From Aquamicrobium sp. (GTDB taxonomy: Bacteria > Pseudomonadota > Alphaproteobacteria > Rhizobiales > Rhizobiaceae), in assembly GCA_019739225.1 (NCBI GenBank), contig JAHHDT010000005.1:124001-188000 (forward strand): DNA of 64,000 nt. The letters run 5' to 3'. Shown here one piece after another: positions 19,965 through 52,031 of this stretch (position 1 is its first letter; the number at the start of each line of letters is the position of its first letter). The position numbers were made by a program, and so were the translations under genes. The notes under the pieces were generated by a model. That model was not told the origin of the DNA. It saw only the letters and a program-made list of their open reading frames with translations, and searched no databases.

Positions 19965-20987
19965 TCAGGACACCGGGAACACGTTGCCGCGCAGGATACT
20001 AACATAGCCATGGTCGCTGGCTGCGACCTGCATGTCGGCCGGGACATCCAGTTCGACAGCTTCGCCGGTCTCGATGCGGGCCAGGATGCGCCGACCTTGG
20101 GGCTGGTCGATCACACGGGCCACCTGCGCCGGAATGCCGTCGCCCGCCGTCGCCCAGCCGAGGTCTACCGGCCGCGCCAGTATCTCGACCGGCCCGTCAC
20201 CGACACCTGGAGCGGGAACGGTCGCGCCCGAGACCCGTGCAATGCCGCCCGTCGCCGTTCCGGCCAGGCGGTTGGTGTCGCCCAGGAACTTCATGACGAA
20301 CGCCGATCCCGGCCGCCGGCACACATCTTCCGGCGTGCCCTGCTGCACGATCCGCCCCTCATTGAGGATGACGACGCGGTCGGCGAGGTCCAGCGCCTCT
20401 TCCTGGTCATGGGTCACGAACAGTGTCGTGATGCCGAGCTCGTCGTGGATTTCGCGCAGCCAGCGCCGCAGGTCACGCCGCACATTGGCGTCCAGTGCGC
20501 CGAACGGTTCGTCGAGCAGCAGCACCTTGGGGTCGACCGCCAGCGCCCGCGCCAACGCCACGCGCTGCCTCTGCCCACCGGAGATCTGCGTCGGGAAACG
20601 GTTGCCCAGCCCTTCCAGCCTCACGAGCCGCAACAGATCCTCGACGCGCCGCGCGATCTCGTCCTTCGACCGGCGCACCTTTGACACCTTCATGCCGAAG
20701 GCCACGTTCTCGCCCACCGTCATATGCGGAAACAGCGCATAGTGCTGGAAGACGAAGCCGACGCCGCGCTCGCGCACGGGGATGTTCGTGGCGTCTTCGT
20801 CACCGAAATGGATTGATCCGGCATCCGCATATTCTAGGCCCGCCACCATGCGCAGGATCGTCGTCTTGCCCGAGCCGGAAGGCCCGAGCAGCGCGACAAG
20901 TTCGCCACTCTCGATTTCCAGAGAGACGCCATGCACGGCGCGGAACGTGTCGAAGGTCTTCACGACCTGGTCGAGGGTGATCTTCAT
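19965..20987 (-). CDS. cysA: Sulfate/thiosulfate ABC transporter ATP-binding protein
   Basis: This 340-residue ATPase has Walker A LLGPSGSGKTT, the Q-loop FQHYALFPHMTV, signature [15 protein letters not shown], Walker B VLLLDEPFGALD and switch His in LFVTHDQEEA. Residues from about 240 form the TOBE/CysA-type regulatory region, with 'ARPVDLGWA' typical of CysA. It powers sulfate uptake with CysT and CysW at the inner membrane. Its ATG overlaps the cysW stop by four bases. The operon order leftward is sbp, cysT, cysW, cysA. The usual length for CysA is 340-365 residues. Confidence 0.94.
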   Translation of the reverse strand: MKITLDQVVKTFDTFRAVHGVSLEIESGELVALLGPSGSGKTTILRMVAGLEYADAGSIHFGDEDATNIPVRERGVGFVFQHYALFPHMTVGENVAFGMKVSKVRRSKDEIARRVEDLLRLVRLEGLGNRFPTQISGGQRQRVALARALAVDPKVLLLDEPFGALDANVRRDLRRWLREIHDELGITTLFVTHDQEEALDLADRVVILNEGRIVQQGTPEDVCRRPGSAFVMKFLGDTNRLAGTATGGIARVSGATVPAPGVGDGPVEILARPVDLGWATAGDGIPAQVARVIDQPQGRRILARIETGEAVELDVPADMQVAASDHGYVSILRGNVFPVS

Positions 20988-21880
20988 GACGTCTTTTCCT
21001 GGATGGCGACTGTTGGGCTGGCCAGCGCCGGACGGCCTGCGCGTCCCGCGCCGCGGCGCTCCAGCGCGAGCTTGGCGACAATGGTGACGAGCGCAAGCAC
21101 AGCGAGTATCGAGGCGGCCGCGAATGCGCCGACGGTGTTGTAGTCGTGATAGAGCAGCTCGATGTGCAGCGGCAGCGTGTTGGTCTGGCCGCGGATCTTT
21201 CCGGACACCACCGAGACCGCGCCGAACTCGCCCATCACGCGCGCGTTGCAAAGCACCACGCCATAGAGCAGCGCCCAGCGGATATTGGGCAGCGTCACTG
21301 TGAGGAACGTACGCCAGCCGGATGCGCCCAGCGAGGTCGCCGCCTCTTCGAGGTCCCGCCCCTGCGCCTGCATCAATGGGATCAGCTCGCGCGCAACGAA
21401 CGGCGCGGTCACGAACATCGAGGCGAGCACGATACCGGGCAGGGCGAACAGGATCTGTATCTCGGCCGATTGCAGCGCCGGGCCGAACAGGCCCTGAAGC
21501 CCGTAGACGAAGAGATAGGCAACGCCCGCGACCACCGGCGAGATCGAGAACGGGATTTCGATCACGATCAGCAGAAAACGCCGCCCCCAGAACTCGAATT
21601 TTGTGATCGCCCAGGCGGCCGCGATGCCGAAGATCGTGTTGAGCGGCACGGCGATCAGTGCCGTCAGTACGGTCAGGAAGATCGCGTGTCGCGTGTCCGG
21701 AAGCGCAATGGTTTCCGCGAAATGGCCGATGCCGAGCGCGAAAGCCTGCGTGAAGATCACCAGCAGCGGTGCCAGCACGAGCAGTGAGCCGAAGAAAACG
21801 ACGAAGGCGATCAGTGTCCAGCGAATGGCGGGCTTATCGCCGACCCGTGGCGGTTTGGCGGGGTGCTGCGCCATAGTCAT
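20984..21880 (-). CDS. cysW: Sulfate ABC transporter permease CysW
   Basis: This 298-residue inner-membrane permease has six predicted helices. The cytoplasmic EAA loop is DLEEAATSLGASGWRTF, and FGAVSVVSGKIRGQTNTLP is the CysW-specific segment. It dimerises with CysT and contacts CysA. The start at 21880 overlaps the cysT stop as ATGA; a second in-frame ATG lies at 21874. The gene is intact and of usual length (about 290). Confidence 0.94.
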   Translation of the reverse strand: MTMAQHPAKPPRVGDKPAIRWTLIAFVVFFGSLLVLAPLLVIFTQAFALGIGHFAETIALPDTRHAIFLTVLTALIAVPLNTIFGIAAAWAITKFEFWGRRFLLIVIEIPFSISPVVAGVAYLFVYGLQGLFGPALQSAEIQILFALPGIVLASMFVTAPFVARELIPLMQAQGRDLEEAATSLGASGWRTFLTVTLPNIRWALLYGVVLCNARVMGEFGAVSVVSGKIRGQTNTLPLHIELLYHDYNTVGAFAAASILAVLALVTIVAKLALERRGAGRAGRPALASPTVAIQEKTS

Positions 21881-22724
21881 GCCCTCGCCATGTAGCGCAA
21901 GGCGCGCGCCTGCAGGTAGTTCGTCACGGCAAGCATGACGAAGGCTGTGAACAGCAGCACCGATGCAATCGCCGCGGCGGCGCTGTAGTTGAATTCCTCG
22001 AGACGGATGAAGGCCAGGAGTGCGGTGATCTCGGTCGAAGAGGGCCGGTTGCCGGCAATGAAGATGACGGCGCCGAACTCGCCGAGGCTGCGCGCGAATG
22101 AAAGCGACAGGCCGGCCAGAAGCGCCGGCGTCAGCAGCGGCAGGATCACGCGCAGGAAGATCGTGCCATCCGAACCGCCGAGCGACTGCGCGGCTTCTTC
22201 GAGCGCCGGATCGAGGTCTTCCAGCACAGGCTGCACCGTGCGCACCACGAAGGGCAGGCTGGTGAAGAACATGGCCACCATGATGCCCAGCGGCGTGTAG
22301 ACGACCTGAATGCCGACCGAGGCGAGGATCGAGCCGAGCCAGCCATTCTGCGCGAATAGCGAGGTCAGGGCGATGCCGGCAACCGCCGTCGGCAGCGCGA
22401 AAGGGCAGGTCGACGAGCGCGTCGATGAGCCGTTTGCCGGGAAATTCGTAGCGAACCAGGACCCAGGCCAGCGCCAGCCCGAAGACGAGGCCGAACGCCG
22501 TCGCGGCGAGCGCGGACAAGGCTGTGACGCGGTAGCTGGCTATGGCGCGGGAGGACGAGACGATGCGCCAGTACTCCTCGGGGCCGAGGCTGGCGGCCTT
22601 GAAGATGAGCGCGCCGAGCGGCAACGCCACGATCAGCGCCACGTAGAACAGCGTGATGCCGAGCGACAGCGGCAGAGCCGGGCAGAATTCGACGTCTCAA
22701 GATCGCTTGGACCTTTCGGTGCAA
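21877..22724 (-). CDS. cysT: Sulfate ABC transporter permease CysT, two +1 frameshifts
   Basis: With two single-base corrections the gene encodes about 281 residues very like E. coli CysT (277). The N-terminus HRKVQAILRRRILPGSA is in one frame. A surplus base at about 22671 moves it to LSLGITLFYVALIVALPLGA, and a second at about 22401 moves ALVDLPF into the frame that continues LPTAVAGIALTSLFAQNGWL. The remaining 134 residues, including EDLDPALEEAAQSLGG (EAA loop) and FIAGNRPSSTEI, are intact to the stop at 21877. The start is uncertain: TTG 22724 is the best in-frame candidate. As sequenced the gene is broken; consensus error is the preferred explanation. Confidence 0.85.
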
Positions 22725-22730
22725 TGTGAG

Positions 22731-22758
22731 CGGCCGACAGGCTGACGCCCGTCGGCCG
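22731..22758 (-). terminator. Hairpin between sbp and cysT
   Basis: Arms CGGCCGAC (22731-22738) and GTCGGCCG (22751-22758) enclose a 12-base loop. It lies between the binding-protein stop and the first permease gene, the same placement as the hairpins after the other ABC binding-protein genes in this window. Confidence 0.55.
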
Positions 22759-22778
22759 TGTGTAGGCGAATTGACGGA

Positions 22779-23780
22779 TCAGCGGTCGCCGAAGATCTGG
22801 TCGAGCTTGGCGTCGGACGCGAAGTGCTCCTCCTGGATGCGGTCCCAGCCGCCGAAGACGTCTTCGGCCGTCACCAAGCGCACCTCGGGAAACTGGTCGG
22901 CAAACTCGGCCGTCACCTTTTCATCGTGGACGCGATTGCCGAACGTTGCGGCGATGCGCTGTCCCTCTTCCGAATAGAGGAAATCCAGATAATCCTTCGC
23001 CAGTTCCTGGCTGCCGCGCCGCTCGGCAACGCGGTCGACAATGGCCACCGGGAACTCGGCCAGCAGGCTGACCGACGGCACGACGCTGTCGTAGCTGTCT
23101 TCGCCATATTCGCGGGCGATCGATCGCGTCTCGGCCTCGAATGTGATGATCACGTCGCCTATGCCGCGCTCGATGAACGTCGTGGTCGCGCCGCGTCCGC
23201 CGGTATCGAACACCGGGACATTGTCGAAGATCTTGCCGACGAATTCCGCGATCTTCTCCTCGTCGTCCCCGAAGGCCTCTTTGGCGTAGGCGACCGCGGC
23301 GAGATAGGTATAGCGCGCGTTGCCGGAGGTCTTCGGGTTGGGGAAGATCACTTCCACATCGTCGCGGGCGAGATCGTCCCAGTCGGTGATGTTTTTCGGG
23401 TTGCCTTCGCGGACGAGAAACGACGGGAAGGAATAGTAGGGCGAGGCGTTGTTGGGGAACTCGCTCTGCCAATCGTCGGAAACGAAGCCCTGCTGCACGA
23501 GGAAGTCGATGTCCGTCGTCTGGTTGAAGGTCACCACATCCGCCTCGAGGCCTTCGGCGATGGAGCGCGCCTGGGCCGAAGTGCCGCCATGGGACTGGTC
23601 CACCGTAACGTCGCGTCCGGTCTGCGCCTTATAGGCGGGCACGAAGGCCTCGTTGATTGCGGCGAAAAGCTCGCGGGCGATGTCGTAGGAGGAGTTGAGG
23701 ATCTTGTCCGGCGACTGCGCCTGCGCGGGCGCGGCGAAGAGGAGCGCGGCGGCGGCGCCGGCGAGAAGAAGGCGTTTCAT
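22779..23780 (-). CDS. Sulfate/thiosulfate-binding periplasmic protein
   Basis: This 333-residue protein has a Sec signal of about 21 residues (MKRLLLAGAAAALLFAAPAQ). Family blocks are clear: ILNSSYDIARELFAAINEAF, DQSHGGTSAQARSIAEGLEA, VIFPNPKTSGNARYTYLAA and VTFEAE-like ITFEAETRS. These match the Sbp/CysP fold, in which sulfate is held by main-chain amides. The start at 23780 has GGAG about eight bases upstream; a longer in-frame start lacks support. It heads the leftward sulfate operon and is followed by a hairpin, which would favour its expression over the permeases. Sulfate and thiosulfate preference cannot be separated by eye. Confidence 0.92.
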   Translation of the reverse strand: MKRLLLAGAAAALLFAAPAQAQSPDKILNSSYDIARELFAAINEAFVPAYKAQTGRDVTVDQSHGGTSAQARSIAEGLEADVVTFNQTTDIDFLVQQGFVSDDWQSEFPNNASPYYSFPSFLVREGNPKNITDWDDLARDDVEVIFPNPKTSGNARYTYLAAVAYAKEAFGDDEEKIAEFVGKIFDNVPVFDTGGRGATTTFIERGIGDVIITFEAETRSIAREYGEDSYDSVVPSVSLLAEFPVAIVDRVAERRGSQELAKDYLDFLYSEEGQRIAATFGNRVHDEKVTAEFADQFPEVRLVTAEDVFGGWDRIQEEHFASDAKLDQIFGDR

Positions 23781-23878
23781 GAGGAACTCCGTGAGAAAGG
23801 ACATGCGTCCAGTTCACGCAGAATATCCGTCTTCGCAGGTGCGGGAGAGGCACGTTTACGGGGACGCCCGCCCGGGAA

Positions 23879-24000: not shown

Positions 24001-26058
24001 TCAGCGCAGCGTCGCCGCGATGTTCCCGCCATCGACGGTGGTGACGTCGGCTGTTGTGCGCTCTGCCAGCGCATGGTGCAGGAAGGCCTGCGCCACGTGT
24101 TCGGCCGTCACCTCCAGCCCGAGCAGGTTGCCGGACATGTAGTCCTTCTCGGAAAGCCCGCGCGCCTTCGAGCGGCTGGCGATCATCTCGTCGGTAAGCA
24201 GGCCGGAGCGGATGCGGTCGGCGTTGACGGCATTGGCGCGCACGCCGATGTCGCCATATTCCAGGGCATACTGCCGCGACAGGAACAGCGTTGCTGCTTT
24301 CGGTATGCCGTAGGCGCCGAATTTCGGACCCGGATTGACCGCCTGCTTGGAGGTGTTGAACAGCAGTGCGCCGCCGGTGCCCTGCTGCTTGAAAATGCGC
24401 ACGGCCGCTTGCGCGACATTCTGGTGCGAGAAGAAATTGAGCTCGAAGCTCTTGCGCAGCAGCGCGTCGTCCAGCTCGCCGATTCCGCCTTCAAAGGCGG
24501 CTCCCGCGTTCGAGACCACGATGTCGACGCCACCGTAATTGCGCACGGCCTGTTCGAAGGCGGCGGCGATATCTTCCGGCTTCGTCACGTCGGCACCGAC
24601 GCCGATCGAGCCGTTGCCTGCAGCCTTGGCCGCTTCTTTTGCCTTCTCAGCGTCGAGGTCGACGACCACCACATGCGCGCCCTGGCTGGCGAACAGCTTT
24701 GCCGTTGCGGCCCCAATGGCGCCGGCGCCGCCGGTTACAAGCGCGACCTGCCCCGTCAGCGGCTTCGGCTTGTTGCCGGCGAGCTTGGCCTGCTCCAGCG
24801 ACCAGTATTCGAGCTCGAAAAGGTCGGACTTGGCAAGCGGGCGGAAATCGCCGATCGCTTCGGCACCGCGCACGGCCTCGATCCACATCTCGCCGACGTC
24901 GGAGGCGATCTTCGCGTCCTTCAGCGTGCGGCCGAAACCGAACATGCCCAGCCCCGGCACGAGCAGAAGCCGCGGCATCGGGTCGAGCATGGTACGCTTC
25001 ACGTCGTCGCGCGCGTCGTTCTCCTCGAAGTAGCGGGTGTATTCGGCGACATAGTCGGCAACATGCGTCTTCACCGTCTCGGCGTAGGCGTCCAGATTGT
25101 CGGCGTCGGGCGCAGGCAGCGCCATTGGACCCGTCTTGATGCGGATCGAAAGGTCGGGCGTGGAAACGCCTCGGGCGGCGCGACGCTCCAGCCTTTCCGC
25201 GTTCAGGAATTCCAGGATCGTGGGCGATGTACGGAAGTCGCTGACCATCCGGTCGAAGCGGCCTTCGCCGTGGCGCATCGCGACCGCGCCGCGCAGCAGG
25301 GGGGCTATCTGCGCCGGGTCCGGCAGGCGCTTGGGTAGCGTGACCGGCACCAGCGGGTTCGCGGTGTTCTGCGCCACATAGTCTTCCGCCACGGTGACGT
25401 AGCGGATCATCAGATCGTAGGCATCCTTCGCCGTCTCGGCGAATGTGAAAATACCGTGCTTGTCGAGGATGAGCCCCTCGACCGAAGGATCCTGATCGTA
25501 GATTTCAGCCGCGGCCTTGGCGAGGTCGAAACCGGGCTTGATATAAGGCACGTAGCCCATCTTCGGCCCGAACACCTTGCGGATCAGCGCTTCGCTGTCG
25601 TCGCCTTGGTCGACGATGGCGAGCACGGCTGTCGAATGGGTGTGGTCGACGAACTTGTGCGGCAGGAAGGCGTGCAGCAGCGTTTCGACAGACGGGTTCG
25701 GCGAGCCGGGATCGATCAGGTTGGCGCGCTGCAGTGCCACCATGTCCTCGTCGGAAAGGCTCTCCAACGCGCGCGCCTTGAGAAGCGGCGCGAGCTTCAC
25801 TGCCGGCAGGCCCTGCGGTTCGATCACGCCCATGTCCCACCCGCTGCCCTTCACGCACAGAACCGGCCAGTGGTCGCCGACAAGGTCTGTCGCCTCGAGC
25901 TTGACGGAGGTGTTGCCGCCGCCATGCAGCACGAGGCGCGGCTCTCCGCCCAGCAGGCGGGTGGTGTAGACGCGCAGCGCGAGGTCGCGTTCGACGCCCT
26001 TTTCCGCATAGGCGGCGACCAGGGCTTCGGCGTCGTTGTCGTTCCAGAGGTTCTTCAT
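24001..26058 (-). CDS. Bifunctional class II aldolase / short-chain dehydrogenase (RhaD-like fusion)
   Basis: The protein has 685 residues. Residues 1-400 are a zinc-dependent class II aldolase (LVLHGGGNTSVK at 42-53, metal ligands in DHTHSTA with H139 and H141, and H201 in DKHGIF). Residues 430-685 are a short-chain dehydrogenase with cofactor loop TGGAGAIG (442-449), NAG, and catalytic S570, Y583 and K587 (AYGIPK). Such fusions are known as rhizobial rhamnulose-1-phosphate aldolase/dehydrogenase. Here no rhamnose isomerase or kinase is present. The gene shares a regulon with mtnK and mtnA, so a likely substrate is 5-methylthioribulose-1-phosphate, cleaved to DHAP plus methylthioacetaldehyde that the second domain would reduce or oxidise. 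That substrate is inference. Confidence 0.85.
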   Translation of the reverse strand: MKNLWNDNDAEALVAAYAEKGVERDLALRVYTTRLLGGEPRLVLHGGGNTSVKLEATDLVGDHWPVLCVKGSGWDMGVIEPQGLPAVKLAPLLKARALESLSDEDMVALQRANLIDPGSPNPSVETLLHAFLPHKFVDHTHSTAVLAIVDQGDDSEALIRKVFGPKMGYVPYIKPGFDLAKAAAEIYDQDPSVEGLILDKHGIFTFAETAKDAYDLMIRYVTVAEDYVAQNTANPLVPVTLPKRLPDPAQIAPLLRGAVAMRHGEGRFDRMVSDFRTSPTILEFLNAERLERRAARGVSTPDLSIRIKTGPMALPAPDADNLDAYAETVKTHVADYVAEYTRYFEENDARDDVKRTMLDPMPRLLLVPGLGMFGFGRTLKDAKIASDVGEMWIEAVRGAEAIGDFRPLAKSDLFELEYWSLEQAKLAGNKPKPLTGQVALVTGGAGAIGAATAKLFASQGAHVVVVDLDAEKAKEAAKAAGNGSIGVGADVTKPEDIAAAFEQAVRNYGGVDIVVSNAGAAFEGGIGELDDALLRKSFELNFFSHQNVAQAAVRIFKQQGTGGALLFNTSKQAVNPGPKFGAYGIPKAATLFLSRQYALEYGDIGVRANAVNADRIRSGLLTDEMIASRSKARGLSEKDYMSGNLLGLEVTAEHVAQAFLHHALAERTTADVTTVDGGNIAATLR

Positions 26059-26094
26059 GTCTTGTCCGTCAGTGGCGTTGGGAGGATACGAATG

Positions 26095-27051
26095 TCAGGC
26101 GGCGGAACTGGCCGCCTCGGCGAGAAGGCGTTCGGCCATGCTTTGCGAAAGCACGAGATGGGTTGCGAATTTGCCGGCAAGGGCGGCCTTGAGCGGGTCT
26201 AGCTTGGCGCTTTCCTGCACGACCATCATCCGCTTCGGGATATGCCGGAAAGACGCGAAGTCGGCGGAGATGACCCGCCGGTTGTAGTCGCAGTCGAGGA
26301 GCTCGCCCGTGGCGTCGATCATCTGTCCGGCGATCACGCCCGCCGCTCCGCGATCGCGCAGGGCGTGCACCTCGTCGGCGGTCATCGCACCGCATTTGAC
26401 CACGTGGGCGTCCTCGTCGACCATGCCGACCGAAAACAGCGCCAGATCGCAATCCGACACACCCGCGAGCTGCTCTCGGATCACCGGTTCGTCGCGCAGT
26501 TCGCGCGCCAGACGCTCGCTCGATAGCACCAGCGGTGCGTAGAAATTGAGGCCCTTGGCGTTGAGCCGGCGGGCGATTTCCATCGTGCACTGGTCCGGCC
26601 GGTAGGAGTAGGGCGCGCCGAGATTGCCGCAAAGCTGCACGACGGTAACGTCCTGCAGGTCCGCATAGGACATGACGTCGGCGATCGAATAGACCGTTCG
26701 GCCCCAGGCGATGCCTATCTTCTGGCCGCTGGCCGCCAGCGAAAGGAAGACGCTTGCCGCCAGTGCTGGGATTTCGACGGCGGGCTCGAAGACCGGTCCG
26801 GTTTCCGGGGCCACCCAAACTCCGGCGAGCCCGTAGGTGTCCTCCACGCGCCGCGCCAGCACGTCGCTGGCAAAGAGATGCGTCGACGTGGCGATGGTGA
26901 CGATGCCGCTTTCTCGCGCCTTGCGCAGGTAGAGCGCCACGGACGCGCGCGAGATGTCGAGACGCCGCGCGACCTCGTCCTGCCGCAGGCCATGCGTGTA
27001 GTAGAGCCACGCGGCCTTGTGCACGATCTGGTCGCCGGGGCGGGTTGGCAT
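26095..27051 (-). CDS. SorC/DeoR-type sugar-binding transcriptional regulator
   Basis: This 318-residue regulator has an N-terminal helix-turn-helix (HKAAWLYYTHGLRQDEVARR followed by LDISRASVALYLRKAR) and the C-terminal sugar-phosphate-binding domain of the SorC/LsrR family (GIAWGRTVYSIADVMSY, VVQLCGNLGAPYSYRPDQ, GVIAGQMIDATGELLDCDYN). Members usually bind a phosphorylated sugar that releases them from palindromic operators. Start 27051 has AAGGAAGGGA eight bases upstream; a start 27 bases earlier has no site. It lies between the binding-protein and aldolase genes. The perfect palindrome at 30803-30831 is the obvious operator, with MTR-1-phosphate or a product as likely inducer. Confidence 0.88.
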   Translation of the reverse strand: MPTRPGDQIVHKAAWLYYTHGLRQDEVARRLDISRASVALYLRKARESGIVTIATSTHLFASDVLARRVEDTYGLAGVWVAPETGPVFEPAVEIPALAASVFLSLAASGQKIGIAWGRTVYSIADVMSYADLQDVTVVQLCGNLGAPYSYRPDQCTMEIARRLNAKGLNFYAPLVLSSERLARELRDEPVIREQLAGVSDCDLALFSVGMVDEDAHVVKCGAMTADEVHALRDRGAAGVIAGQMIDATGELLDCDYNRRVISADFASFRHIPKRMMVVQESAKLDPLKAALAGKFATHLVLSQSMAERLLAEAASSAA

Positions 27052-27122
27052 GGCTCTGTCCCTTCCTTTCGTCGTCATGACAAAAGTACGTACTGCGCGC
27101 GAGCGAGACCGGTAAGGTGAAA

Positions 27123-27157
27123 CGGGCGGGACGGTCCGTTGCGAACCGCCCCGCCCG
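27123..27157 (-). terminator. Hairpin after the sugar-type binding-protein gene
   Basis: Arms CGGGCGGGACGG (27123-27134) and CCGCCCCGCCCG (27146-27157) pair with one A-C mismatch around an 11-base loop. It lies 15 bases past the binding-protein stop on the leftward transcript, before the SorC gene, and may attenuate or process the message. Confidence 0.6.
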
Positions 27158-27171
27158 AAGCTTGAAACCGC

Positions 27172-28218
27172 CTACTCGTTCGGGTTCGGCATCCACGCAG
27201 GCATGGCGACATCGGCATGGTTGAACTGGGGCATCTTGGCCGACAATTCCTCCATGTTCTTGATGTCGCTGTCGTTGAGTTCGGCCTGCGTGATCAGCGT
27301 CGGCGGCACGATGACGCTGGCGCCCGGCTCCTCGCCGGCGAGCATCATGGCGAGCGCGCGCACCGAAACCTGGCCGACGACGGCCGGGTTGGTGGCGGCC
27401 GTCGCGACCCATGCACTGCCGGGCTCGCGCATCGCCGAGATGTCGGCGGTGGAGATGTCGGCCGAATAGATCTTGATGTCCGAGGAAAGCCCGGCTTCGT
27501 CCACCGCGATCTTCACGCCTTTCGCGAACTCGTCATAGGGTGCGAAGACGACCTGGATGCCGGGATTGGCGGTCAGCACCGAACGCGCCTGATTGGCGAC
27601 GGAGTTGGCGATCGGGTTGTCGAGCGTGCCGAACATGGCAACTTCCTCGATGCCCGAATAGCGCTCCTTGAATTCCCGCCAGGTCTCGTCGCGCCGGTCG
27701 AGCGGTGCGATGCCGGCAACGTAGACATAGGCTGCCTTCCAGGCCTCTCCATTGTCCTCGATAGCCTGTTCCAGCGCGAGCCTTGCGAGGTCGCGGTCGG
27801 ACTGCTCGATCTGCGGGATCGCCTCGTTCTCGACATTCACGTCGAAGGCGACGACCTTGATGCCGGCATCGACTGCACGCTGTGCGGCCTCCTTCATTGA
27901 TTCGGTCAGGCCGTGCTGGATGATGATGCCGTCGACGCCGAGCGCGATCGCCTGGTCGACCATGTCGGCCTGCAGCGCCGCATCCTGACGGCTGTCCAGC
28001 ACGCGCAGGTCGACGCCCAGCGCCTTGGCCTGCGATTCGACGCCGGCCAGATAGGCCTGGAAGAAGTCGCCGGTGGACAGGTATCGCACCAGCGCGATCT
28101 GGACGTCGGCGGCATTGTCGAACGGCGCCGGCCGGTCCTGTGCCAGCGCCGGCAAGGCGAAGATGCCCGTGGCCGCGGCCAGTCCAAGGGCGCTGAATGT
28201 CCTGCGGGTAATGCTCAT
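27172..28218 (-). CDS. Sugar-type ABC substrate-binding protein (RbsB/LsrB fold), predicted methylthioribose binder
   Basis: This 348-residue periplasmic protein has a signal that includes a twin-arginine-like start (SITRRTFSALGL) and cleavage after PALAQ. The Peripla_BP_4 fold is recognisable from VQIALVRYLSTGDFFQAYLAG, DMVDQAIALGVDGIIIQHGL, VVAFDVNVENEAIPQI and VVFAPYDEFAKGVKIAVDE. These resemble ribose- and AI-2-binding proteins. GGAGG precedes ATG 28218. It is third in the leftward operon after the ATPase and permease. Because mtnK and mtnA are divergently transcribed from the same control region, 5-methylthioribose or 5-deoxyribose is the predicted ligand. This is inference from context. 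Confidence 0.88.
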   Translation of the reverse strand: MSITRRTFSALGLAAATGIFALPALAQDRPAPFDNAADVQIALVRYLSTGDFFQAYLAGVESQAKALGVDLRVLDSRQDAALQADMVDQAIALGVDGIIIQHGLTESMKEAAQRAVDAGIKVVAFDVNVENEAIPQIEQSDRDLARLALEQAIEDNGEAWKAAYVYVAGIAPLDRRDETWREFKERYSGIEEVAMFGTLDNPIANSVANQARSVLTANPGIQVVFAPYDEFAKGVKIAVDEAGLSSDIKIYSADISTADISAMREPGSAWVATAATNPAVVGQVSVRALAMMLAGEEPGASVIVPPTLITQAELNDSDIKNMEELSAKMPQFNHADVAMPAWMPNPNE

Positions 28219-28264
28219 GCTCGTTTCCTCCACTCTGTGGCTTGTTGCAGCCTTGTTGAACCCG

Positions 28265-29252
28265 TCATCTCGCCCTGTTGGAGAGCGCGAATGTGAAGAC
28301 GAGGGCGACGACGAGAACCGCGCCCTTGACGAAATCCTGCGTGTAGTAGGGCGCGTTCATCATCGTCAGCCCCTGCAGCAGGACGCCCACGAAGAGAGCG
28401 CCGATTGCGGTGCCGAAGGCGTTCGGCTTGGCGGCACCCAGCACCGCGAAGCCGATCAGCGCCGCGGCCACCGAATCGAGCAGCAGATTGTTGCCGGAGG
28501 CGATGTCGCCCCGGCCCAGTCGCGCGGCGAGCAGGATGCCGCCGATCGAGGCGAAGACGCCGGAGATGACATAGGCCCAGATCTTGTAAACCTTGACTGG
28601 CGCGCCTGCGAGTTCAGCCGCCTTTTCGTTGCTGCCGACCGCATACATCATCCGCCCGAACCGCGTGAATTCGAGGAAGAACCAGATCAGGACCGCCAGC
28701 ACCAGCAACACCACGACCGACACCGGAAGCAGATTGTCGATGAAGAAAGTCGAGCCGGTGTCGCCCGAGCGCCAGGAACGTCGGGCTGAACGTGCCGGTC
28801 GCCGTCGAGCCGTCGGGCATGGTCATGCCGGTGGCGATGGAGCGGCCTTCCGTGGGGATGCGTTGGAGCCCGACCAGCAGGAACATCATGCCGAGCGTGG
28901 CAAGCAGGTCGGGCACGCGCATATAGACGATGATGATGCCGTTGACGAGGCCGACCAGGGCGCCGATTGCCAGGCAGAAGAGCACCGCGACAAGCGCGTT
29001 CTGCTCCAGCACGACCATGGCGTAGGCCGCGGCCATCATTGCGCTGGTGGCGACCGAGCCGATGGACAGGTCGAAGCCGCCGACGACAAGGGTTGCCGTG
29101 ACGCCCAGCGCCAGGATGCCGGTGATGGCAACCGACTGGAAGATGAAGACCGCGCTCTGCGGCGAGGCGAAGCCGGGTGCGGCGAACGCGAAGAACACGA
29201 TCAGTGCGGCCAGAAGGGCCAGGAATCCGTAGCGGATGACGGTGTCGGCCAT
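28265..29252 (-). CDS. Sugar ABC transporter permease (RbsC-like), one +1 frameshift
   Basis: After removing one surplus base near 28765 the gene encodes about 328 residues with 8-10 helices of the BPD_transp_2 family. The N-terminal part has GVTATLVVGGFDLSIGSVAT, the family hallmark, and RVPDLLATLGMMF. The frame breaks after PTFLALG and resumes as DTGSTFFIDNLLPVSVVVLL, continuing through FTRFGRMMYAVGSNEKAAEL and KIWAYVISGVFASIGG to the stop at 28265. Its ATG overlaps the stop of the ATPase gene (TGATG). The sequence after the break is perfectly conserved, so an error in the consensus is likelier than decay. Confidence 0.85.
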
Positions 29253-30758
29253 CAGGCGGCGCCTCGTATATCTTCGCCGGCGACCTGCGCCAGCAGTCTG
29301 TCCATGTCCAGGCCGGCGTTGCGGTGCTCGCCGACGATGGTGTGTTCCGACATCACCAGGATGCGGTCGGCGGTCTCGAGCGCCTCGTCGAGCTCGGTCA
29401 GGAACAGGAGCGTCGCCCTGCCCGCCGCGCCGGCGCGCAGCTTCGCCGCGATGTCGCGCCTTGCGGCGATGTCGACGCCCTGGAACGGCTCGTCGAGGAT
29501 CAGCAGCGAGGAAGGCTGCGACGGTCCAGCGCGCCACCATCACCTTCTGCTGGTTGCCGCCGGAAAGGGTCTGCATCCGGTCGCGCTCGCCACGGCAGAC
29601 GATGCCGAGTTCCTCGATCTGCCGGCGGGCGATTGCGCGCTCGGCGCGCGGCTGCGACACGCCCAACCGGGCAAGGCGACGCAGGAACGGCAGGCTTACG
29701 TTCTTGTAGAGATTGAAATCGGCGACGATGCCGCTTTCCGCACGATCCTTGGCGACGAGAAAGACGCCTCCTTCTATCGCGTCGGCCGGCGAACGAGGGC
29801 GATACTCGCGCCCCTCCAGCGTCATCGTTCCGCCGAGCGGGCGGCGCACCCCGAACAGCGTCTCGGCAAGCGCCGTCTTGCCGACGCCGACAAGCCCGGT
29901 GATCGCGACCACCTCGCCGTCGCCGAGCGCAAGCGAAAAGGGTCTTGCCTGGCTTGCGATGCGCAGGCCCTTGGCTTCGAAGACCGTTCGCGTCGCGTCC
30001 TTCACCGATACCGTCGATAGATCCATAGCCCGGCCGAGCATCGCGTCGACCGCGCCCTCGTAGTCGAGCGGCTTGTCGGCGAAGACGCCCGCGATGACGC
30101 CGTCCCGCAATGCGACGATCCGGTCCGCGATGCGGCGGATGTCGGACATGCGGTGCGAGATGTAGAGGATGGCGACGCCGTGCTCGCGCAGCCGCTCGAC
30201 CACCGCGAACAGCCGGTTGGCTTCCGCGCTCGACAGCGACGATGTCGGCTCGTCGAGGATCATAACCTTGGGCTCGTGCGCCATGGCGCGCGCGATGGCC
30301 ACCATCTGCCGGTCGGCGAGCGAAAGCTCGGATATGCTGGCGGAAAGGTTGACCTGCAGCCCAAGCCGGTCGGCGACCGCCCGCGCCTCGCGCCTGACGC
30401 GGCGCGGATTGAAAAGCAGAGGCGCGCCCTTGCCGGTGAGCCTGTCCATGGTCAGGTTCGTGGCGACGTCGAGGGCGGCCACCACGCCGTCATTGATGTT
30501 CTGGTGAACCGTCACCACCCCGGCGCGGATCGCCTCGGCGGGTGAGGCGGGGTCGAATGGCTCGCCCGAAAGGTGCATCGTGCCGCGGTCGCGCGCATGC
30601 ACGCCGCTGATCACCTTCACCAGCGTCGACTTGCCGGCGCCGTTGGCTCCCATCAGTACGGTGACTTCGCCTGCGCGCAACTCGAGATCGACGTCGCTCA
30701 GCACCCGAATGGGGCCAAACGCCTTCTCCAGACCCGCAATGCGGAACATGGCTTCCAT
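29252..30758 (-). CDS. Sugar ABC transporter ATP-binding protein (RbsA-like, two domains), one +1 frameshift
   Basis: The repaired protein has about 501 residues with two ATPase domains. Domain 1 has Walker A MGANGAGKS, signature-like ELSLADRQMV and Walker B VMILDEPTSSL. Domain 2 has the degenerate Walker A GLVGVGKT usual for RbsA and signature LSGGNQQK. A surplus base near 29516, just after VMVARWTVA, shifts the frame; correcting it gives PSSLLILDEPFQGVDIA and an ending GEDIRGAA with the stop overlapping the permease start. ATG 30758 is chosen because GGGAGGAG lies nine bases upstream. It heads the leftward operon controlled by the 30.8-kb palindrome. Confidence 0.86.
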
Positions 30759-30784
30759 GGCCGCCAACTCCTCCCTGGCACCGG

Positions 30785-30848
30785 ACGCTACGGCACTGTA
30801 TCGGCAATTGTCAACATGATTGACAATTGCCAGTCTCGTCTCTAGCGT
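30785..30848. promoter_or_regulatory. Divergent promoters overlapping a perfect 12+12 palindrome
   Basis: GGCAATTGTCAA (30803-30814) and TTGACAATTGCC (30820-30831) are exact reverse complements around spacer CATGA. Each arm supplies a TTGACA -35 box. Rightward, TTGACA (30820-30825) is 17 bases from TAGCGT (30843-30848), leading to mtnK. Leftward, TTGACA (30814-30809) is 18 bases from another TAGCGT (30790-30785), leading to the importer genes. A dimer or tetramer bound here would block both promoters. The SorC-family protein encoded in the leftward operon is the expected ligand. Confidence 0.75.
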
Positions 30849-30920
30849 TTTCCTTCAGAGGCGGAGAACCGGCGTATCAAGACCGTATCCGCAACCATGC
30901 GCAGTGACGGGAGGAGTTGC

Positions 30921-32189
30921 ATGGACGCCGCATCTTTCGAGGCGCTGAATGCCGAAACGCTGGGCCCGAGGCTGGGTGGGCTGGAGGCGCTGCGCGCCCG
31001 TCTCGGAGACGATCCGTCAGCATGGCGCGTCCGCGAGGTCGGCGATGGCAACCTCAACCTGGTGTTCATCGTCGACGGCGACAAAGGCAGCGTGATCGTC
31101 AAGCAGGCGCTGCCCTATGTGCGCCTTGTAGGCGAGAGCTGGCCGCTGCCGCTTAAGCGCTCCTTCTTCGAATACCACACGCTGACGCGCCAGGCTGCCC
31201 GCGCGCCCGGCCAAGTGCCGGAGATCTTCCATTTCGACGAGCAGCAGGCGCTGATCGTCATGGAGTTTCTATCGCCGCACGTGATCCTGCGCCGCGCGCT
31301 GATCGACGGCCGGATGCTGCCGCGCATCGCCGACGACCTAGCGCTGTTCATGGCGCGCACGCTTTTCCGCGGGTCGGACCTTTCCATGCAGACACGGGAG
31401 CGCAAGGCCGATCTGGCGCTCTTCGCCGACAATGTCGAACTCTGTGACATCACCGAGAACCTGGTTTTCTCCGACCCTTATTTCGACGCGGAGATGAACT
31501 CGCACACCTCACCGCAGCTCGACGGTCTGGTGGCGCAGTTGCGTGCCGATCGCGACCTCAAGGTTGCCGCGCAGCGCATGAAACACATCTTTGCCGCGCG
31601 GGCGGAGACGCTCGTGCATGGCGACCTGCATACCGGCTCGATCATGGTAACCGAGACGGAAACCAGGGTCATCGATCCCGAATTCGCCTTCTATGGCCCG
31701 ATGGCCTTCGATGTCGGCATGCTCTTCGCCAATTTCTGGATGTCTTATTTCTCCCAGTCGGGTCATGAGCAGGAGGGCAATCGCGACGCGATGCGCGCCT
31801 ACCTTCTGGATGTGCAGGAGCGCTGCTGGAACGGCTTCGTGGCCGAGTTTTCGCGCCTGTGGCGCACCGAGCGGAACGGCATCCTCTACCAGAAGAGCCT
31901 GTTCGAGGCGCAGGGCGATCATCTCGGCGCGGAGCAGGCGCTGGGCGAGCTGCTGCGCGAGATGTGGGTCGACCTGCTCGGTTTCGCCGGCATCGAGATT
32001 CACCGCCGCATCCTCGGTCTCGCGCACAACGCCGACTTCGAGACGATCGAGGATCCTGACATGCGGGCGCGATGTGAGGCGAAAGCGCTCAAGTTCGGGC
32101 GGCAGATCGCCGTCAACCGTGCCCACCTGAACGGTATGAAGGAAGCCAATGCGCTTGCAGCGCTGATCGAGACGGGAGCGGTGGCGTGA
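30921..32189 (+). CDS. mtnK: 5-methylthioribose kinase
   Basis: This 422-residue cytosolic kinase phosphorylates 5-methylthioribose at C1 using ATP. It shows the choline-kinase-like fold with [15 protein letters not shown] (nucleotide loop), Lys in [11 protein letters not shown], catalytic loop HGDLHTGS (233-240) and the metal-binding [14 protein letters not shown] (251-264), all diagnostic of MtnK. Start ATG 30921 is preceded by GGAGG. Its stop overlaps the mtnA GTG start, so the two are translationally coupled. The product is the substrate of MtnA. MtnK may also accept 5-deoxyribose. Confidence 0.95.
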
Positions 32190-33277
32190 GAGTTGGCGAC
32201 AGGCATTTCCGTACCATCTGGCTGAACGACGATGGCAGAGCGGTCGACATAATCGACCAGCGCTGGCTGCCGCACGATTTCCGGATCGTCACACTGTCGA
32301 CCGTAGAGGATGTCGCGACCGCGATCCGCGACATGTGGGTGCGTGGCGCGCCGCTGATCGGGGTCACTGCGGCCTACGGCGTTGCCATCGCCATGCATGC
32401 CGATCCGTCCGACGAAGCGCTGGAAGCGGTATGGCGTACGCTTCACGAGACGCGTCCGACGGCGATCAACCTGCGCTGGGCGCTCGACGAGATGACGCGG
32501 CTCCTGAAGCCGCTGCCCGCGGCCGAGCGCGCCGACGCCGCCTATGCGCGCGCTGCCGAGATCGCCGACGAGGACGTCGAACTCAACCGGTCGATCGGCT
32601 CGCACGGCCTGACGCTGATCCGCCAGATCGCCGCGTCGAAGAAGCCGGGCGAAAGCGTCAACATCCTCACCCACTGCAATGCCGGCTGGCTGGCGACCGT
32701 CGACTATGGCACCGCCACCGCGCCGATCTACATGGCCACGGAAGAGGGCATTCCCGTCCACGTCTACGTTGACGAAACACGGCCGCGAAATCAGGGCGCG
32801 CAGCTCACCGCATGGGAAATGGCCGGCCACGGCGTGTCGCACACGCTGGTCGTGGACAATGCCGGCGGTCACCTCATGCAGCGCGGCCAGGTCGACATGG
32901 TGATCGTCGGGACCGACCGCACCACGGCCAATGGCGATGTCTGCAACAAGATAGGCACCTATCTGAAGGCACTTGCTGCCCGCGACAACGGCGTGCCGTT
33001 CTACGTCGCCCTGCCGTCGCCCACCATCGACTGGACGGTGAAGGATGGCCTCGCCGAAATCCCGATCGAGGAGCGCTCGGGCGACGAGGTGTCTCTGGTC
33101 TGGGGCCGCGCGCCCTCCGGCGAGGTGGTGCAGGTGCGCATATCGCCGGACGAGACCGAGGCGGCAAATCCCGCCTTCGACGTGACGCCGGCGCGGCTCG
33201 TGACCGGCCTCATCACAGAGCGCGGTATCGCCGAAGCCTCAGCCGAAGGGCTGAAGGGGCTGTTTCCCGAAAGCTGA
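32186..33277 (+). CDS. mtnA: S-methyl-5-thioribose-1-phosphate isomerase
   Basis: This 363-residue enzyme of the eIF2B-like family converts 5-methylthioribose-1-phosphate to 5-methylthioribulose-1-phosphate. Key features are RGAPLIG (53-59), catalytic C164 in [11 protein letters not shown]244 in [13 protein letters not shown] and KIGTY. The start codon is GTG 32186 inside a GTGA overlap with mtnK. Downstream methionine-salvage genes (mtnB, mtnC/W/X, mtnD) are absent from the window; instead a class II aldolase sits in the same regulon. This enzyme would generate that aldolase's substrate. Confidence 0.95.
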
Positions 33278-33358
33278 TCCGCCGGCTGTCCCTTTTGCAG
33301 TTGCGGGGTGCGTCCGCCGGCGCGAAGATGGTCTTCCTGTCGTCGGGGGAAGAACTGC

Positions 33359-34579
33359 ATGAGCGTGAAATATGACGGGACGCCCGCAACGGCCCCGCGC
33401 CGGTTGCGCAACATTCTGGCGCTCGACGATTTCGAGGTGGCGGCGCGCCGGCATCTCCCGAGGCCGGTCTTCGGTTACGTCTCGGGTGCCGCCGAAACCA
33501 ACGCGTCGCTCCATGACAACCGCGCGGCCTTTGCCGAGTTCGGTTTCCTGCCCCGCGCGCTGATCGACGTTTCCAAACGCTCGCAGAAGCGGGAGCTTTT
33601 CGGCACGACCTATGCCGCACCCTTCGGCATCGCGCCCGTCGGGCTGAGCGCGCTTTCCGCCTATCGCGGCGATCTGGTTTTGGCGCAGGCTGCCGCCGCC
33701 AGTGGCATCCCGATGATCATGAGCGGCACGTCGCTGATCCGGCTGGAGGAGATCGCCGCCGCCAATCCTCAGGCCTGGTTTCAGGCCTACGTGCCCGGCG
33801 AGGAGCGCTGGATGCTGGCGCTCGTCGATCGTGTCGCCCAGGCGGGGTTCGGGACGCTCGTGCTGACGGTGGACACGCCGGTCATGGCCAATCGCGAGAA
33901 CAACATCCGCAACGGCTTCTCGACGCCCATGCGCCCCACCCCGCGCCTGTTCTGGGATGGCATGGTGCGGCCGCGCTGGAGCCTTGGAACCTTCCTGCGG
34001 ACGATCGTCAGGCATGGCATGCCGCATTTCGAGAACGCCTCGGTCGAGCGCGGATCGGCGATCCTGTCGCGCAATGTCGTGCGCCAGTTCGGCCCCAAGG
34101 ACAGGCTGAGCTGGGCGCATTTCGACCTCATCCGCAAGCGATGGAAGGGGCGTTTCGTCGTCAAGGGCATCATGACGCGTGAGGATGCACGCATCGCGCT
34201 CGATCGCGGCGCCGACGGCGTGATCCTGTCCAATCATGGCGGCCGGCAGCTCGACGGTACGGCATCTCCGCTGCGTGTCCTGCCTGCCGTCGCCGAGGAG
34301 ATCGGCGGCCGTATCCCGGTGATGATCGACGGCGGATTCCGGCGCGGAACGGACGTTCTGAAGGCGCTGGCGCTCGGCGCATCGTTCGTTTTTCTCGGAC
34401 GGCCTTTCATCTATGCCGCAGCCATCGGCGGCGAGCCCGGCGTGCGCCACGCCTTTTCGATTCTTCACGAGGAGATCGACCGGAACATGGCACTTCTGGG
34501 CATCAACACACTGGACGAGTTGCATCCCCGCATGCTGATCCGGCTTGCGCGATCGGCGGAATCAGACGCTTCGGCATAG
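33359..34579 (+). CDS. FMN-dependent alpha-hydroxy-acid dehydrogenase/oxidase (LldD family), copy 1
   Basis: This 406-residue TIM-barrel flavoprotein has RPVFGYVSGAAETNASL at the N-terminus, FMN-site residues in GIAPVGLSAL and MSGTSLIRLEE, Tyr in WFQAYVPGEE, VVKGIMTREDA with the conserved Lys, and the catalytic His and Arg in LSNHGGRQLDG. MIDGGFRRGTDVLKALALGA binds the FMN phosphate. The family oxidises L-lactate, glycolate, mandelate or related 2-hydroxy acids to 2-oxo acids. It begins 81 bases after mtnA on the same strand and could be an extension of that operon. The substrate is unknown. Confidence 0.88.
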   Translation: MSVKYDGTPATAPRRLRNILALDDFEVAARRHLPRPVFGYVSGAAETNASLHDNRAAFAEFGFLPRALIDVSKRSQKRELFGTTYAAPFGIAPVGLSALSAYRGDLVLAQAAAASGIPMIMSGTSLIRLEEIAAANPQAWFQAYVPGEERWMLALVDRVAQAGFGTLVLTVDTPVMANRENNIRNGFSTPMRPTPRLFWDGMVRPRWSLGTFLRTIVRHGMPHFENASVERGSAILSRNVVRQFGPKDRLSWAHFDLIRKRWKGRFVVKGIMTREDARIALDRGADGVILSNHGGRQLDGTASPLRVLPAVAEEIGGRIPVMIDGGFRRGTDVLKALALGASFVFLGRPFIYAAAIGGEPGVRHAFSILHEEIDRNMALLGINTLDELHPRMLIRLARSAESDASA

Positions 34580-34700
34580 AGAAGACTTGCAGAGCGGGGC
34601 ATCCGCAGGCATTTGGTTTCCTTGCCGGGGGCAAAAATTCCGGCATCCGAAATGCCAGCCGGCCGCAAGGCCAGATGTTCATCCGCATGCAGGCCACGCA

Positions 34701-35837
34701 ATGTCCCATCTCCTCACCATCGCCGACCTGAAGGAACTCGCCAGGCGTCGCGTGCCTACCATGTTCTTCGACTACGCCGATTCCGGCGCCTGGACCGAAG
34801 GCACCTATCGCGCCAACGAGGAGGACTTCGCCAACATCAAGCTGCGCCAGCGCGTGCTGGTGGACATGACCGACCGGTCGCTCGAAACGACGATGATCGG
34901 CGAGAAGGTATCGATGCCCGTGGCTTTGGCGCCCACCGGACTTACCGGCATGCAGCACGCCGACGGCGAGATGCTGGCCGCGCAGGCGGCCGAAGCGGCC
35001 GGCGTTCCTTTCACGCTGTCGACGATGAGCATCTGCTCGATCGAGGATGTAGCGTCGGTGACGACGAAGTCGTTCTGGTTCCAGCTCTACGTGATGCGCG
35101 ACCGCGACTTCGTGCGCAATCTGATCGACCGGGCCAAGGCCGCGAAATGCTCGGCCCTCGTGCTCACCGCCGACCTGCAAATCCTCGGCCAGCGCCACAA
35201 GGATGTACGCAACGGCCTTTCGGCCCCGCCAAAGCTGACGCTTGCCAACCTGTTCGACATGGCGCTGCGCCCGCGCTGGTGTGCTGCGATGCTGGGCACG
35301 CAGCGGCGCACTTTCCGTAACATCGTCGGCCACGCCAAGGGCGTGGGCGACCTGTCGTCCCTGTCGTCCTGGACTGCCGAGCAATTCGACCCGAAGCTTT
35401 CGTGGGATGACGTCGCCTGGATCAAGGAGCATTGGGGCGGCAAGCTCATCATCAAGGGTATTCTGGACGAGGAGGATGCCCGTATGGCGGCGAAGACGGG
35501 CGCCGACGCGATCATCGTCTCCAATCACGGCGGCCGCCAGCTTGATGGCGCAAGGTCGTCGATCTCGATGCTGCCGCGTATCGTGGAGGCCGTCGACGGA
35601 CGGATCGAGGTTCATGTCGACGGTGGCATCCGCTCCGGTCAGGATGTGCTGAAAGCCGTGGCATTGGGGGCACAGGGCACTTATATCGGCCGCCCGTTCC
35701 TCTACGGGCTCGGTGCAATGGGTCGCGAAGGCGTGACGCTGGCGCTAGAAATCATCCGCAAGGAGCTGGACATCACCATGGCACTGTGCGGCAAGCGACG
35801 CATCACCGACGTCGACGGCTCGATACTGGCGCGCTAG
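34701..35837 (+). CDS. FMN-dependent alpha-hydroxy-acid dehydrogenase (L-lactate dehydrogenase type), copy 2
   Basis: This 378-residue relative of the preceding gene is closer to respiratory L-lactate dehydrogenase LldD in length and motifs: TMFFDYADSGAWTEGTYR, APTGLTGMQHADGE, WFQLYVMRDRDF, IIKGILDEEDA, catalytic VSNHGGRQLDGA and HVDGGIRSGQDVLKAVALGA. LldD feeds electrons to the quinone pool while producing pyruvate. The gene is 121 bases after copy 1, with no clear promoter seen between them. The two proteins differ along their whole length, so they are not a recent duplication and probably have different substrates. Confidence 0.88.
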   Translation: MSHLLTIADLKELARRRVPTMFFDYADSGAWTEGTYRANEEDFANIKLRQRVLVDMTDRSLETTMIGEKVSMPVALAPTGLTGMQHADGEMLAAQAAEAAGVPFTLSTMSICSIEDVASVTTKSFWFQLYVMRDRDFVRNLIDRAKAAKCSALVLTADLQILGQRHKDVRNGLSAPPKLTLANLFDMALRPRWCAAMLGTQRRTFRNIVGHAKGVGDLSSLSSWTAEQFDPKLSWDDVAWIKEHWGGKLIIKGILDEEDARMAAKTGADAIIVSNHGGRQLDGARSSISMLPRIVEAVDGRIEVHVDGGIRSGQDVLKAVALGAQGTYIGRPFLYGLGAMGREGVTLALEIIRKELDITMALCGKRRITDVDGSILAR

Positions 35838-51997: not shown

Positions 51998-52031
51998 TTG
52001 ACTCGCGTCAAAATTCAAACGTATGTTTGAA
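51998..52031 (+). promoter_or_regulatory. TetR promoter and overlapping operator
   Basis: TTGACT (51998-52003) and TATGTT (52022-52027) are 18 bases apart. The perfect palindrome TTCAAAC-GTAT-GTTTGAA (52014-52031) covers the -10 box. Transcription would start close to the ATG at 52034, which lacks any Shine-Dalgarno sequence, so a leaderless and autorepressed message is predicted. Confidence 0.6.

Follow-up and report, generated by a model that had tools for sequence, protein, structure and literature searches.

We analysed a 64,000-nucleotide stretch of the genome of an Aquamicrobium sp. (assembly GCA_019739225.1, contig JAHHDT010000005.1, positions 124,001–188,000; hereafter the window, whose own numbering is used throughout), in which positions 24001–33277 carry a cluster built around a class II aldolase fused to a short-chain dehydrogenase. 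In our view, to which we give a probability of about 0.85, this cluster is an inducible pair of operons that scavenges 5-methylthioribose (MTR) by a variant of the dihydroxyacetone phosphate (DHAP) shunt in which the fused enzyme oxidizes the aldehyde; 5-deoxyribose is probably also a substrate. A DHAP shunt for these two sugars had been proposed in an initial annotation of this DNA. At the level of sequence it is supported by the likeness of the cluster's binding protein to the solved structure 4RY8, by the tie of the fusion to MtnA and to MtnK or MtnP, by the exchange of the fusion with a FucA-like aldolase beside mtnA and, with the caveats given below, by a common palindromic operator. The computed evidence comprises the genes present, their conservation and co-occurrence, the exchange of genes and the match of the binding protein.

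The genes, their coordinates and their families agree with that annotation. mtnK and mtnA (30897–33277, plus strand) diverge from a minus-strand operon, read from 30767 to 24001, which encodes an ATP-binding cassette (ABC) ATPase, a permease, a periplasmic binding protein, a SorC-type regulator and the 685-residue fusion. The 5-methylthioribose kinase MtnK (30897–32189, plus strand) scores 494.1 bits against TIGR01767 (cut-off 275) and the 5-methylthioribose-1-phosphate isomerase MtnA (32186–33277, plus strand) scores 439.2 bits against TIGR00512 (cut-off 279). The DHAP shunt needs MtnK or MtnP together with MtnA, and the window encodes MtnK and MtnA, both over cut-off.

The fused aldolase/dehydrogenase

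The fusion gene (24001–26058, minus strand) encodes a protein matched over its full length (residues 1–685 of 685) by the NCBIfam model NF006192 at 1117.6 bits (cut-off 639), with the Pfam domains Aldolase_II at residues 31–227 and adh_short at residues 437–618. The class II aldolase part is encoded at 24769..26058 and the dehydrogenase part (residues 434–685), for which we predict oxidation of the released aldehyde dependent on nicotinamide adenine dinucleotide (NAD), at 24001..24759, both on the minus strand. The single-domain aldolase of the Ald2/DrdA type is not the form found in this cluster, which has instead a long aldolase fused to a short-chain dehydrogenase (SDR). An AlphaFold model of the fusion, with a predicted local distance difference test (pLDDT) score of 62.7, was too poor for use. 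Across 17 orthologues TGGAGAIG, Asp467, NAG517–519, Ser570, Tyr583 and Lys587 are invariant in the dehydrogenase half, and we take these residues to have the roles assumed for them in SDR enzymes; Asp467 presumably points to NAD as the cofactor. Also invariant in these orthologues are HGGGNTS, Glu125, His139, His141 and His201 of the aldolase half, which by analogy with RhaD and FucA would be phosphate-binding, catalytic and metal residues (PMC3870299).

The resemblance to the rhizobial RhaD fusion that was noted at first holds at the level of the RhaEW superfamily (498.5 bits against TIGR02632, RhaD_aldol-ADH), but this score is under the cut-off of 567.75, and the window fusion is related to the RhaD/RhaEW fusion as a paralogue rather than as an orthologue. 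RhaEW is a bifunctional L-rhamnulose-phosphate aldolase/L-lactaldehyde dehydrogenase (PMC3870299). The genome has a separate RhaEW on contig C6, with 1227 bits against NF006189 (rhamnulose-1-phosphate) and 1082.5 bits against TIGR02632, both over cut-off. The two proteins share about 35% identity, and in their alignment the window fusion has Glu (PSVETLLHAF) where the organism's own RhaEW has Asp (SIDTPLHAF); in RhaE an Asp replaces the catalytic Glu of RhaD (PMC3870299). Near the C6 gene are genes for a sugar ABC importer, for a glycerol-3-phosphate dehydrogenase and for a protein with weak similarity to FGGY kinases. Neither a rhamnose isomerase nor an FGGY kinase was found among the scored window neighbours of the fusion; rhaI was not searched genome-wide. 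Because this RhaEW is encoded elsewhere in the genome, the rhamnose role is better assigned to it, and we rejected such a role for the window fusion.

The importer and its binding protein

The binding protein (27172–28233, minus strand; Pfam Peripla_BP_4) has 4RY8 as its best solved relative by sequence (E = 3.3e-65), the next being 5ULB (2e-37); ribose-binding proteins match at 4e-14 or weaker, with E. coli RbsB at 1.6e-11. In a Foldseek search with a model of the protein (pLDDT 82.6), 4RY8 again ranked first, with 38% identity over 314 aligned columns. The entry is titled as a 5-methylthioribose transporter solute binding protein (Tlet_1677 of Thermotoga lettingae), and no paper on it was found in the literature searched. 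The window protein is closer to 4RY8 than to RbsB and is predicted from this likeness to bind 5-methylthioribose. The initial proposal of an importer for extracellular methylthioribose or 5-deoxyribose thus gains from the binding protein, but an importer of this kind already has a precedent in 4RY8.

Conservation in related loci and across the family

A scan of named genomes gave 542 relatives, from which the best 80 loci, mostly of Mesorhizobium and allied genera, were kept. mtnK is present in 75 of the 80, mtnA in 75, and the binding protein, permease and ATPase together in 72. Three of the five loci lacking mtnK are cut by contig ends (L022, L052 and L086), and the other two are of full length (L032 and L054). 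Two loci (L024 and L072) show sorC–fusion–mtnK–mtnA, in this order and on one strand, with no importer, and we therefore regard mtnK, mtnA, the fusion and the regulator as the core, to which the importer is usually but not always added.

The survey of co-occurrence suggested by the initial annotation was carried out on 151 genomes of the window's family, with the fusion and MtnK counted over cut-off. The fusion occurs in 49 and MtnK in 55 of these; both are present in 42, the fusion only in 7, MtnK only in 13 and neither in 89 (Fisher p = 1.2e-18, phylogeny ignored). In 37 of the 42 genomes with both, the two genes lie at most 10 kb apart.

In four genomes with MtnK but no fusion (G042, G095, G102 and G124) the immediate neighbour of mtnA is a class II aldolase gene of the single-domain type. 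G048, which has its fusion elsewhere, carries such an aldolase in the mtnK cluster. The same importer accompanies four of these five clusters (G095 being the exception). In G078, again with MtnK only, such an aldolase lies about 5 kb from mtnK. For the aldolases of G042 and G102 the best models are those of L-fuculose-phosphate aldolase, just below the subfamily cut-off, and the solved relatives of the G042 protein include 6BTD and 6BTG, which we take to be DrdA. That the fusion and the single-domain aldolase share one slot is expected if the fusion performs the aldolase step.

Two fusion-only genomes (G049 and G062) have mtnA clustered with a TRZ/ATZ-type deaminase and a purine-nucleoside phosphorylase in place of MtnK, and G055, where a contig end truncates the fusion, has the same layout. 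All three clusters also contain parts of a BMP-type ABC importer; the models that fit it best are those for a putative B6 transporter, with scores far under cut-off. The matches of the G062 deaminase include 5'-deoxyadenosine deaminase, below cut-off, and the phosphorylases of G055 and G049 score over the cut-off of a purine-nucleoside phosphorylase model. The set may import and split a 5'-deoxynucleoside. One further genome (G136) has both front ends, the MtnK type and the BMP/deaminase/phosphorylase type, in a single locus.

Distribution across the class

In a scan of 289 genomes of the class, the fusion was sought with a profile made from 17 fusions of the window type (E ≤ 1e-180), and MtnA and MtnP were counted at E ≤ 1e-60 and E ≤ 1e-55, respectively. 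The fusion was found in 50 genomes, the organism's own included, of which 46 have MtnA and 44 have MtnP; the class background is 127 genomes with MtnA, 140 with MtnP and 10 with MtnK. Within 5 kb of the fusion lie mtnA in 26 of the 50, mtnP in 19 and either gene in 31. Twelve loci were fetched. Four have the order mtnP–apt–mtnA–fusion (L141, L142, L149 and L150; apt families were scored for L141, L149 and L150) and one has mtnP–mtnA–fusion (L144); the others comprise two with mtnA–fusion, two with mtnP–fusion and three with neither gene. Plasmid pTM3 of Tistrella mobilis also carries mtnP–mtnA–fusion. The scan indicates that the kinase-plus-importer form seen in the window is one front end of a wider MtnA–fusion unit.

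Outside the class, we note a 58%-identical fusion near a gene 39% identical to mtnK on plasmid 2 of Gemmatirosa kalamazoonensis (Gemmatimonadota; L155).

The regulator and a predicted operator

The SorC/DeoR-type sugar-binding regulator is encoded at 26095–27078 on the minus strand (Pfam Sugar-bind, 163 bits). All 80 named loci have a SorC gene no more than 500 bases away from the fusion, the one in L081, where the contig ends, being partial. The window regulator is 30.5% identical to YjhU/MtnR, the repressor of the E. coli shunt (PMC12632272). Identities of 30–40% to YjhU are general among the 15 SorC proteins compared, three of them from loci of a 50%-identical paralogue of the fusion, so this likeness reflects the superfamily only and we set it aside as specific evidence.

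Between the ATPase gene and mtnK we predict an operator of two facing sites (30801..30833, strand unassigned), TCGGCAATTGTCAA (30801–30814) and TTGACAATTGCCAG (30820–30833), each with two mismatches to the palindrome TTGACNNNNGTCAA. The palindrome was spotted in the output of a shared-word motif search, in itself barely above shuffles (mean 13.9 versus 13.4 of 18), and was then tested on the same loci. With at most two mismatches it is present in all 78 of the sorC upstream regions (at most one mismatch in 76) and in all 72 ATPase/mtnK regions, compared with about 6% of block shuffles and 9% of random stretches from the same loci. The window as a whole holds 19 sites with two mismatches. The fusion gene is part of the operon that begins with the ATPase gene, and this operon has its divergent promoter region in common with mtnK–mtnA, as co-regulation of these genes would have it.

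Salvage genes in the genome

The absence of classical salvage genes, first claimed for the window, extends to the genome for the acireductone dioxygenase MtnD (PF03079, no match) and for MtnB over cut-off (best score 62.3 bits versus 137.05), while MtnC, MtnW and MtnX were not searched. With no MtnD match and no MtnB over cut-off, we rejected full methionine salvage, a complete set of which elsewhere in the genome would have spoken against the shunt. MtnP likewise has no match over cut-off in this genome (a single match of 99.7 bits versus 274.85) and the MtnN family has no match at all. Across the family, some match to MtnP is seen in 133 of the 151 genomes and scores around 99.7 bits are common, but only 3 of the 151 exceed the cut-off; MtnN is over its cut-off in 6 of the 151. 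Since neither MtnN nor MtnP over cut-off is encoded, the window organism likely depends on MTR from outside, although internal formation of MTR by other enzymes is conceivable. Excretion of MTR has been reported for E. coli (PMC6302742).

Proposed pathway

We infer the following reactions, along with the preferred substrate, the oxidative direction of the dehydrogenase and the repression. MTR would be brought in by the CUT2-type ABC importer with its 4RY8-like binding protein, phosphorylated by MtnK to MTR-1-phosphate and isomerized by MtnA to 5-methylthioribulose-1-phosphate (MTRu-1-P). The aldolase half of the fusion would cleave this compound to DHAP and 2-(methylthio)acetaldehyde, or to DHAP and acetaldehyde in the case of the 5-deoxy sugar, and the dehydrogenase half would use NAD to oxidize the aldehyde to (methylthio)acetate or acetate, without any need to release it. 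One fusion protein would in this way take the place of two enzymes, an aldolase (Ald2 or DrdA) and a separate alcohol dehydrogenase. Oxidation is predicted because the RhaEW of Chloroflexus oxidizes and because the SDR residues of the fusion are intact. SorC would repress both divergent transcripts through the TTGAC-N4-GTCAA operator until a pathway intermediate accumulates.

A broader reading, the chances of which we regard as even, is that the fusion is a widespread alphaproteobacterial partner of MtnA that makes the DHAP shunt oxidative and NAD-coupled. In rhizobia without the nucleosidase and phosphorylase for methylthioadenosine (MTA) the shunt would serve purely external scavenging, with a dedicated importer taking up MTR that other organisms excrete, and the set of nucleoside-type importer, deaminase and phosphorylase would be an interchangeable front end.

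A second fate of MTRu-1-P sharing the regulon may be represented by a split transketolase and a RuBisCO-like protein, the latter closest to MtnW models but well below cut-off, encoded downstream of mtnA in one related locus (L154, 19820–22883). The same pair is found downstream of mtnA in L065, L081, L083 and L087, in the same locus as mtnA in L126, and in part in L133 and L090; it is absent from the window.

Evidence against the scavenging reading

A number of observations weigh against the reading of the cluster as an MTR-scavenging system. The co-occurrence tests ignore phylogeny, and 5 of the 42 family genomes with both genes do not have the fusion within 10 kb of mtnK; in two of the 5 the genes are on different contigs. 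MtnK occurs without a fusion over cut-off in 13 of its 55 genomes, and 8 of those 13 showed no class II aldolase in the stretch that was fetched. Nor is the wider family of fusions homogeneous: five fusion-only genomes (G003, G015, G094, G112 and G119) have no MtnA and an approximately 50%-identical fusion in another locus, and two more (G075 and G084) have such a copy besides the MtnK-linked fusion. In 19 of the 50 class genomes neither mtnA nor mtnP is found within 5 kb of the fusion, a separation that is partly due to their lying on different contigs of fragmented assemblies. MtnK is present in only 4 of the 50 genomes, with no association (Fisher p = 0.07); we therefore rejected it as a universal partner. 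It is not a general partner of the fusion outside the family, where MtnA and MtnP take that place. Partial matches to acireductone dioxygenase occur in 8 of the 151 family genomes, and one of these (G054, 27.8 bits) is just over the cut-off of 27.

The operator carries reservations of its own. The loci are related to one another and the motif was first noticed in them, so the test is not independent. Only 5 of the 72 ATPase/mtnK regions reach one mismatch or fewer, and AT-richer control stretches of the same loci contain the motif with at most two mismatches in 34% of cases and with at most one in 10%. Given these controls, the ATPase/mtnK result taken alone is moderate and the sorC result is the stronger. 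The single perfect match to TTGACNNNNGTCAA in the window is at 51998, outside the cluster, and the window's own sorC site has four mismatches, a decay that fits the position of sorC within the ATPase operon. In the BMP-importer regions of G055 and G062 the TTGACAAATG halves were seen by eye only, and a scan of these regions at no more than one mismatch gave none in G062 and one in G055, at 3927.

Finally, the importer frames in the window are broken, with open reading frames at 28614–30767 (ATPase) and 28265–28723 (permease). By alignment with contig C2 of the same assembly, the permease gene spans 28265..29252 (upper bound estimated) and the ATPase gene, with two ABC domains, 29254..30767 (lower bound estimated), both on the minus strand. 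In C2 the frames are intact, at 504 residues for the ATPase and 328 for the permease. This contig, 166,639 bases long, parallels the first part of the window's contig, C5, at about 95–100% identity with small indels in the stretches compared, and the reported contamination of the assembly is 4.66%. We attribute the broken frames to either sequencing error or strain variation. The redundancy of C2 and C5 looks like that of a redundant or mixed-strain assembly, and a true duplication of the cluster was rejected since the second copy sits on a contig parallel to C5.

Alternative interpretations

The alternative to which we allow most room, although we hold it doubtful, is that the physiological substrate is not MTR but 5-deoxyribose, from 5'-deoxyadenosine, which would make the cluster a disposal route of the drd type. 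DrdK and the E. coli shunt accept both sugars (PMC6079011; PMC10986504), but 5-methylthioribose is the sugar named in the title of the closest solved binding protein. The company of MtnP elsewhere in the class also argues for MTR but is not decisive, as MtnP is described as promiscuous (PMC8102628).

Somewhat less probable, and in our judgement unlikely, is the same shunt with a dehydrogenase half that works in the reductive direction, using NADH to turn the aldehyde into 2-(methylthio)ethanol or ethanol. Asp467, by the rule we assume, speaks for NAD. Reduction by separate alcohol dehydrogenases is the route in E. coli and Rhodopseudomonas/Rhodospirillum, and 2-(methylthio)ethanol is the product in R. 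palustris (PMC5893883) and the form in which the methylthio part ends in E. coli (PMC10986504). The Chloroflexus paralogue RhaEW, on the other hand, needs NAD and yields DHAP and lactate; it gave no DHAP without NAD and nothing with NADH, the latter reported as data not shown (PMC3870299).

We consider it very improbable that the fusion is an aldolase for rhamnulose-1-phosphate, or another ketose, which stands beside mtnK and mtnA by chance. Its membership of the RhaEW superfamily and the occurrence of approximately 50%-identical copies in other loci of other rhizobia would fit such a view, but the score under the RhaD cut-off, the separate RhaEW, the Glu where RhaEW has Asp and the conserved linkage with mtnA, mtnK and mtnP all argue against it. 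Least probable of all is sulfur salvage, with the aldolase half acting as an MtnB-like dehydratase and further enzymes completing methionine salvage: MtnB is of the same superfamily (PMC6302742) and cross-activity of DEP1 has been described (PMC6079011), but the genome has neither MtnD nor MtnB over cut-off, and MtnD is represented in the 151 family genomes by partial matches, one barely over cut-off.

Neighbouring genes and related fusions

Two further sets of genes adjoin the cluster in the window. Downstream of mtnA are two neighbouring genes of the FMN-dependent L-lactate dehydrogenase type (LldD; 33308–35837), and a sulfate/thiosulfate-type ABC importer with a CysP-like binding protein (19965–23804), its permease region frame-broken by eye, adjoins the fusion gene. 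Neither was retained as part of the system, since the first LldD and the CysP-like protein each score above 300 bits in 0 of the 80 related loci.

The approximately 50%-identical sister fusions are at L094–L100 (genomes G003, G015, G094, G119, G112, G084 and G075) and at L156, on plasmid p42a of Rhizobium etli. Their surroundings include CUT1-type ABC parts and glycerol-phosphate-dehydrogenase-like genes (L095), an acyl-CoA-ligase-like gene (L094) and, in R. etli, an FGGY kinase and an iron alcohol dehydrogenase.

Significance and comparison with known systems

If the interpretation of the cluster as an oxidative DHAP shunt is right, a function is proposed for part of NF006192, a family that NCBIfam names by domains alone, and alphaproteobacteria with mtnP and mtnA beside a fusion gene gain a candidate aldolase. 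An aldehyde-oxidizing shunt is predicted, with (methylthio)acetate among the products, and MTR, excreted by certain bacteria including E. coli (PMC6302742), is suggested as a food for soil and rhizosphere bacteria. The literature searched, which covered few subscription papers, contained no fused aldolase/dehydrogenase in the breakdown of MTR, MTA or 5-deoxyribose. The combination of parts was initially claimed to be unprecedented; it is indeed unreported in that literature, but the DHAP shunt, the fused RhaEW and an MTR-binding protein are each known separately.

With the 4RY8 system the window shares a binding protein of 38% identity, although T. lettingae belongs to another phylum. With RhaEW the fusion shares its two-domain build, its superfamily and the predicted formation of DHAP and an oxidized aldehyde (PMC3870299); the organism's own RhaEW differs in its approximately 35% identity, in the Asp at the catalytic position and in its setting, a different sugar locus that has an ABC importer of its own and a weakly FGGY-like protein. 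The drd clusters for 5-deoxyribose (Bacillus thuringiensis and others) offer a similar trio in drdK, drdI and drdA, and some include putative sugar transporter genes; their DrdA is a single-domain FucA-type aldolase, and the accessible part of their description has neither an aldolase/dehydrogenase fusion nor a SorC regulator (PMC6079011).

The closest parallel is the DHAP shunt of R. rubrum, R. palustris and some E. coli, with the gene set mtnK or mtnP, mtnA and ald2, in which a kinase or phosphorylase, an isomerase and a class II aldolase likewise lead to DHAP and an aldehyde (PMC10986504; PMC5893883; PMC12632272). In E. coli the nearby repressor YjhU/MtnR is of the same superfamily as the window regulator (PMC12632272). 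The window differs from these shunts in that its long-form aldolase is joined to a dehydrogenase in one protein, in that its regulon has an ABC importer of its own, and in that its predicted product is an acid whereas the known product is an alcohol.

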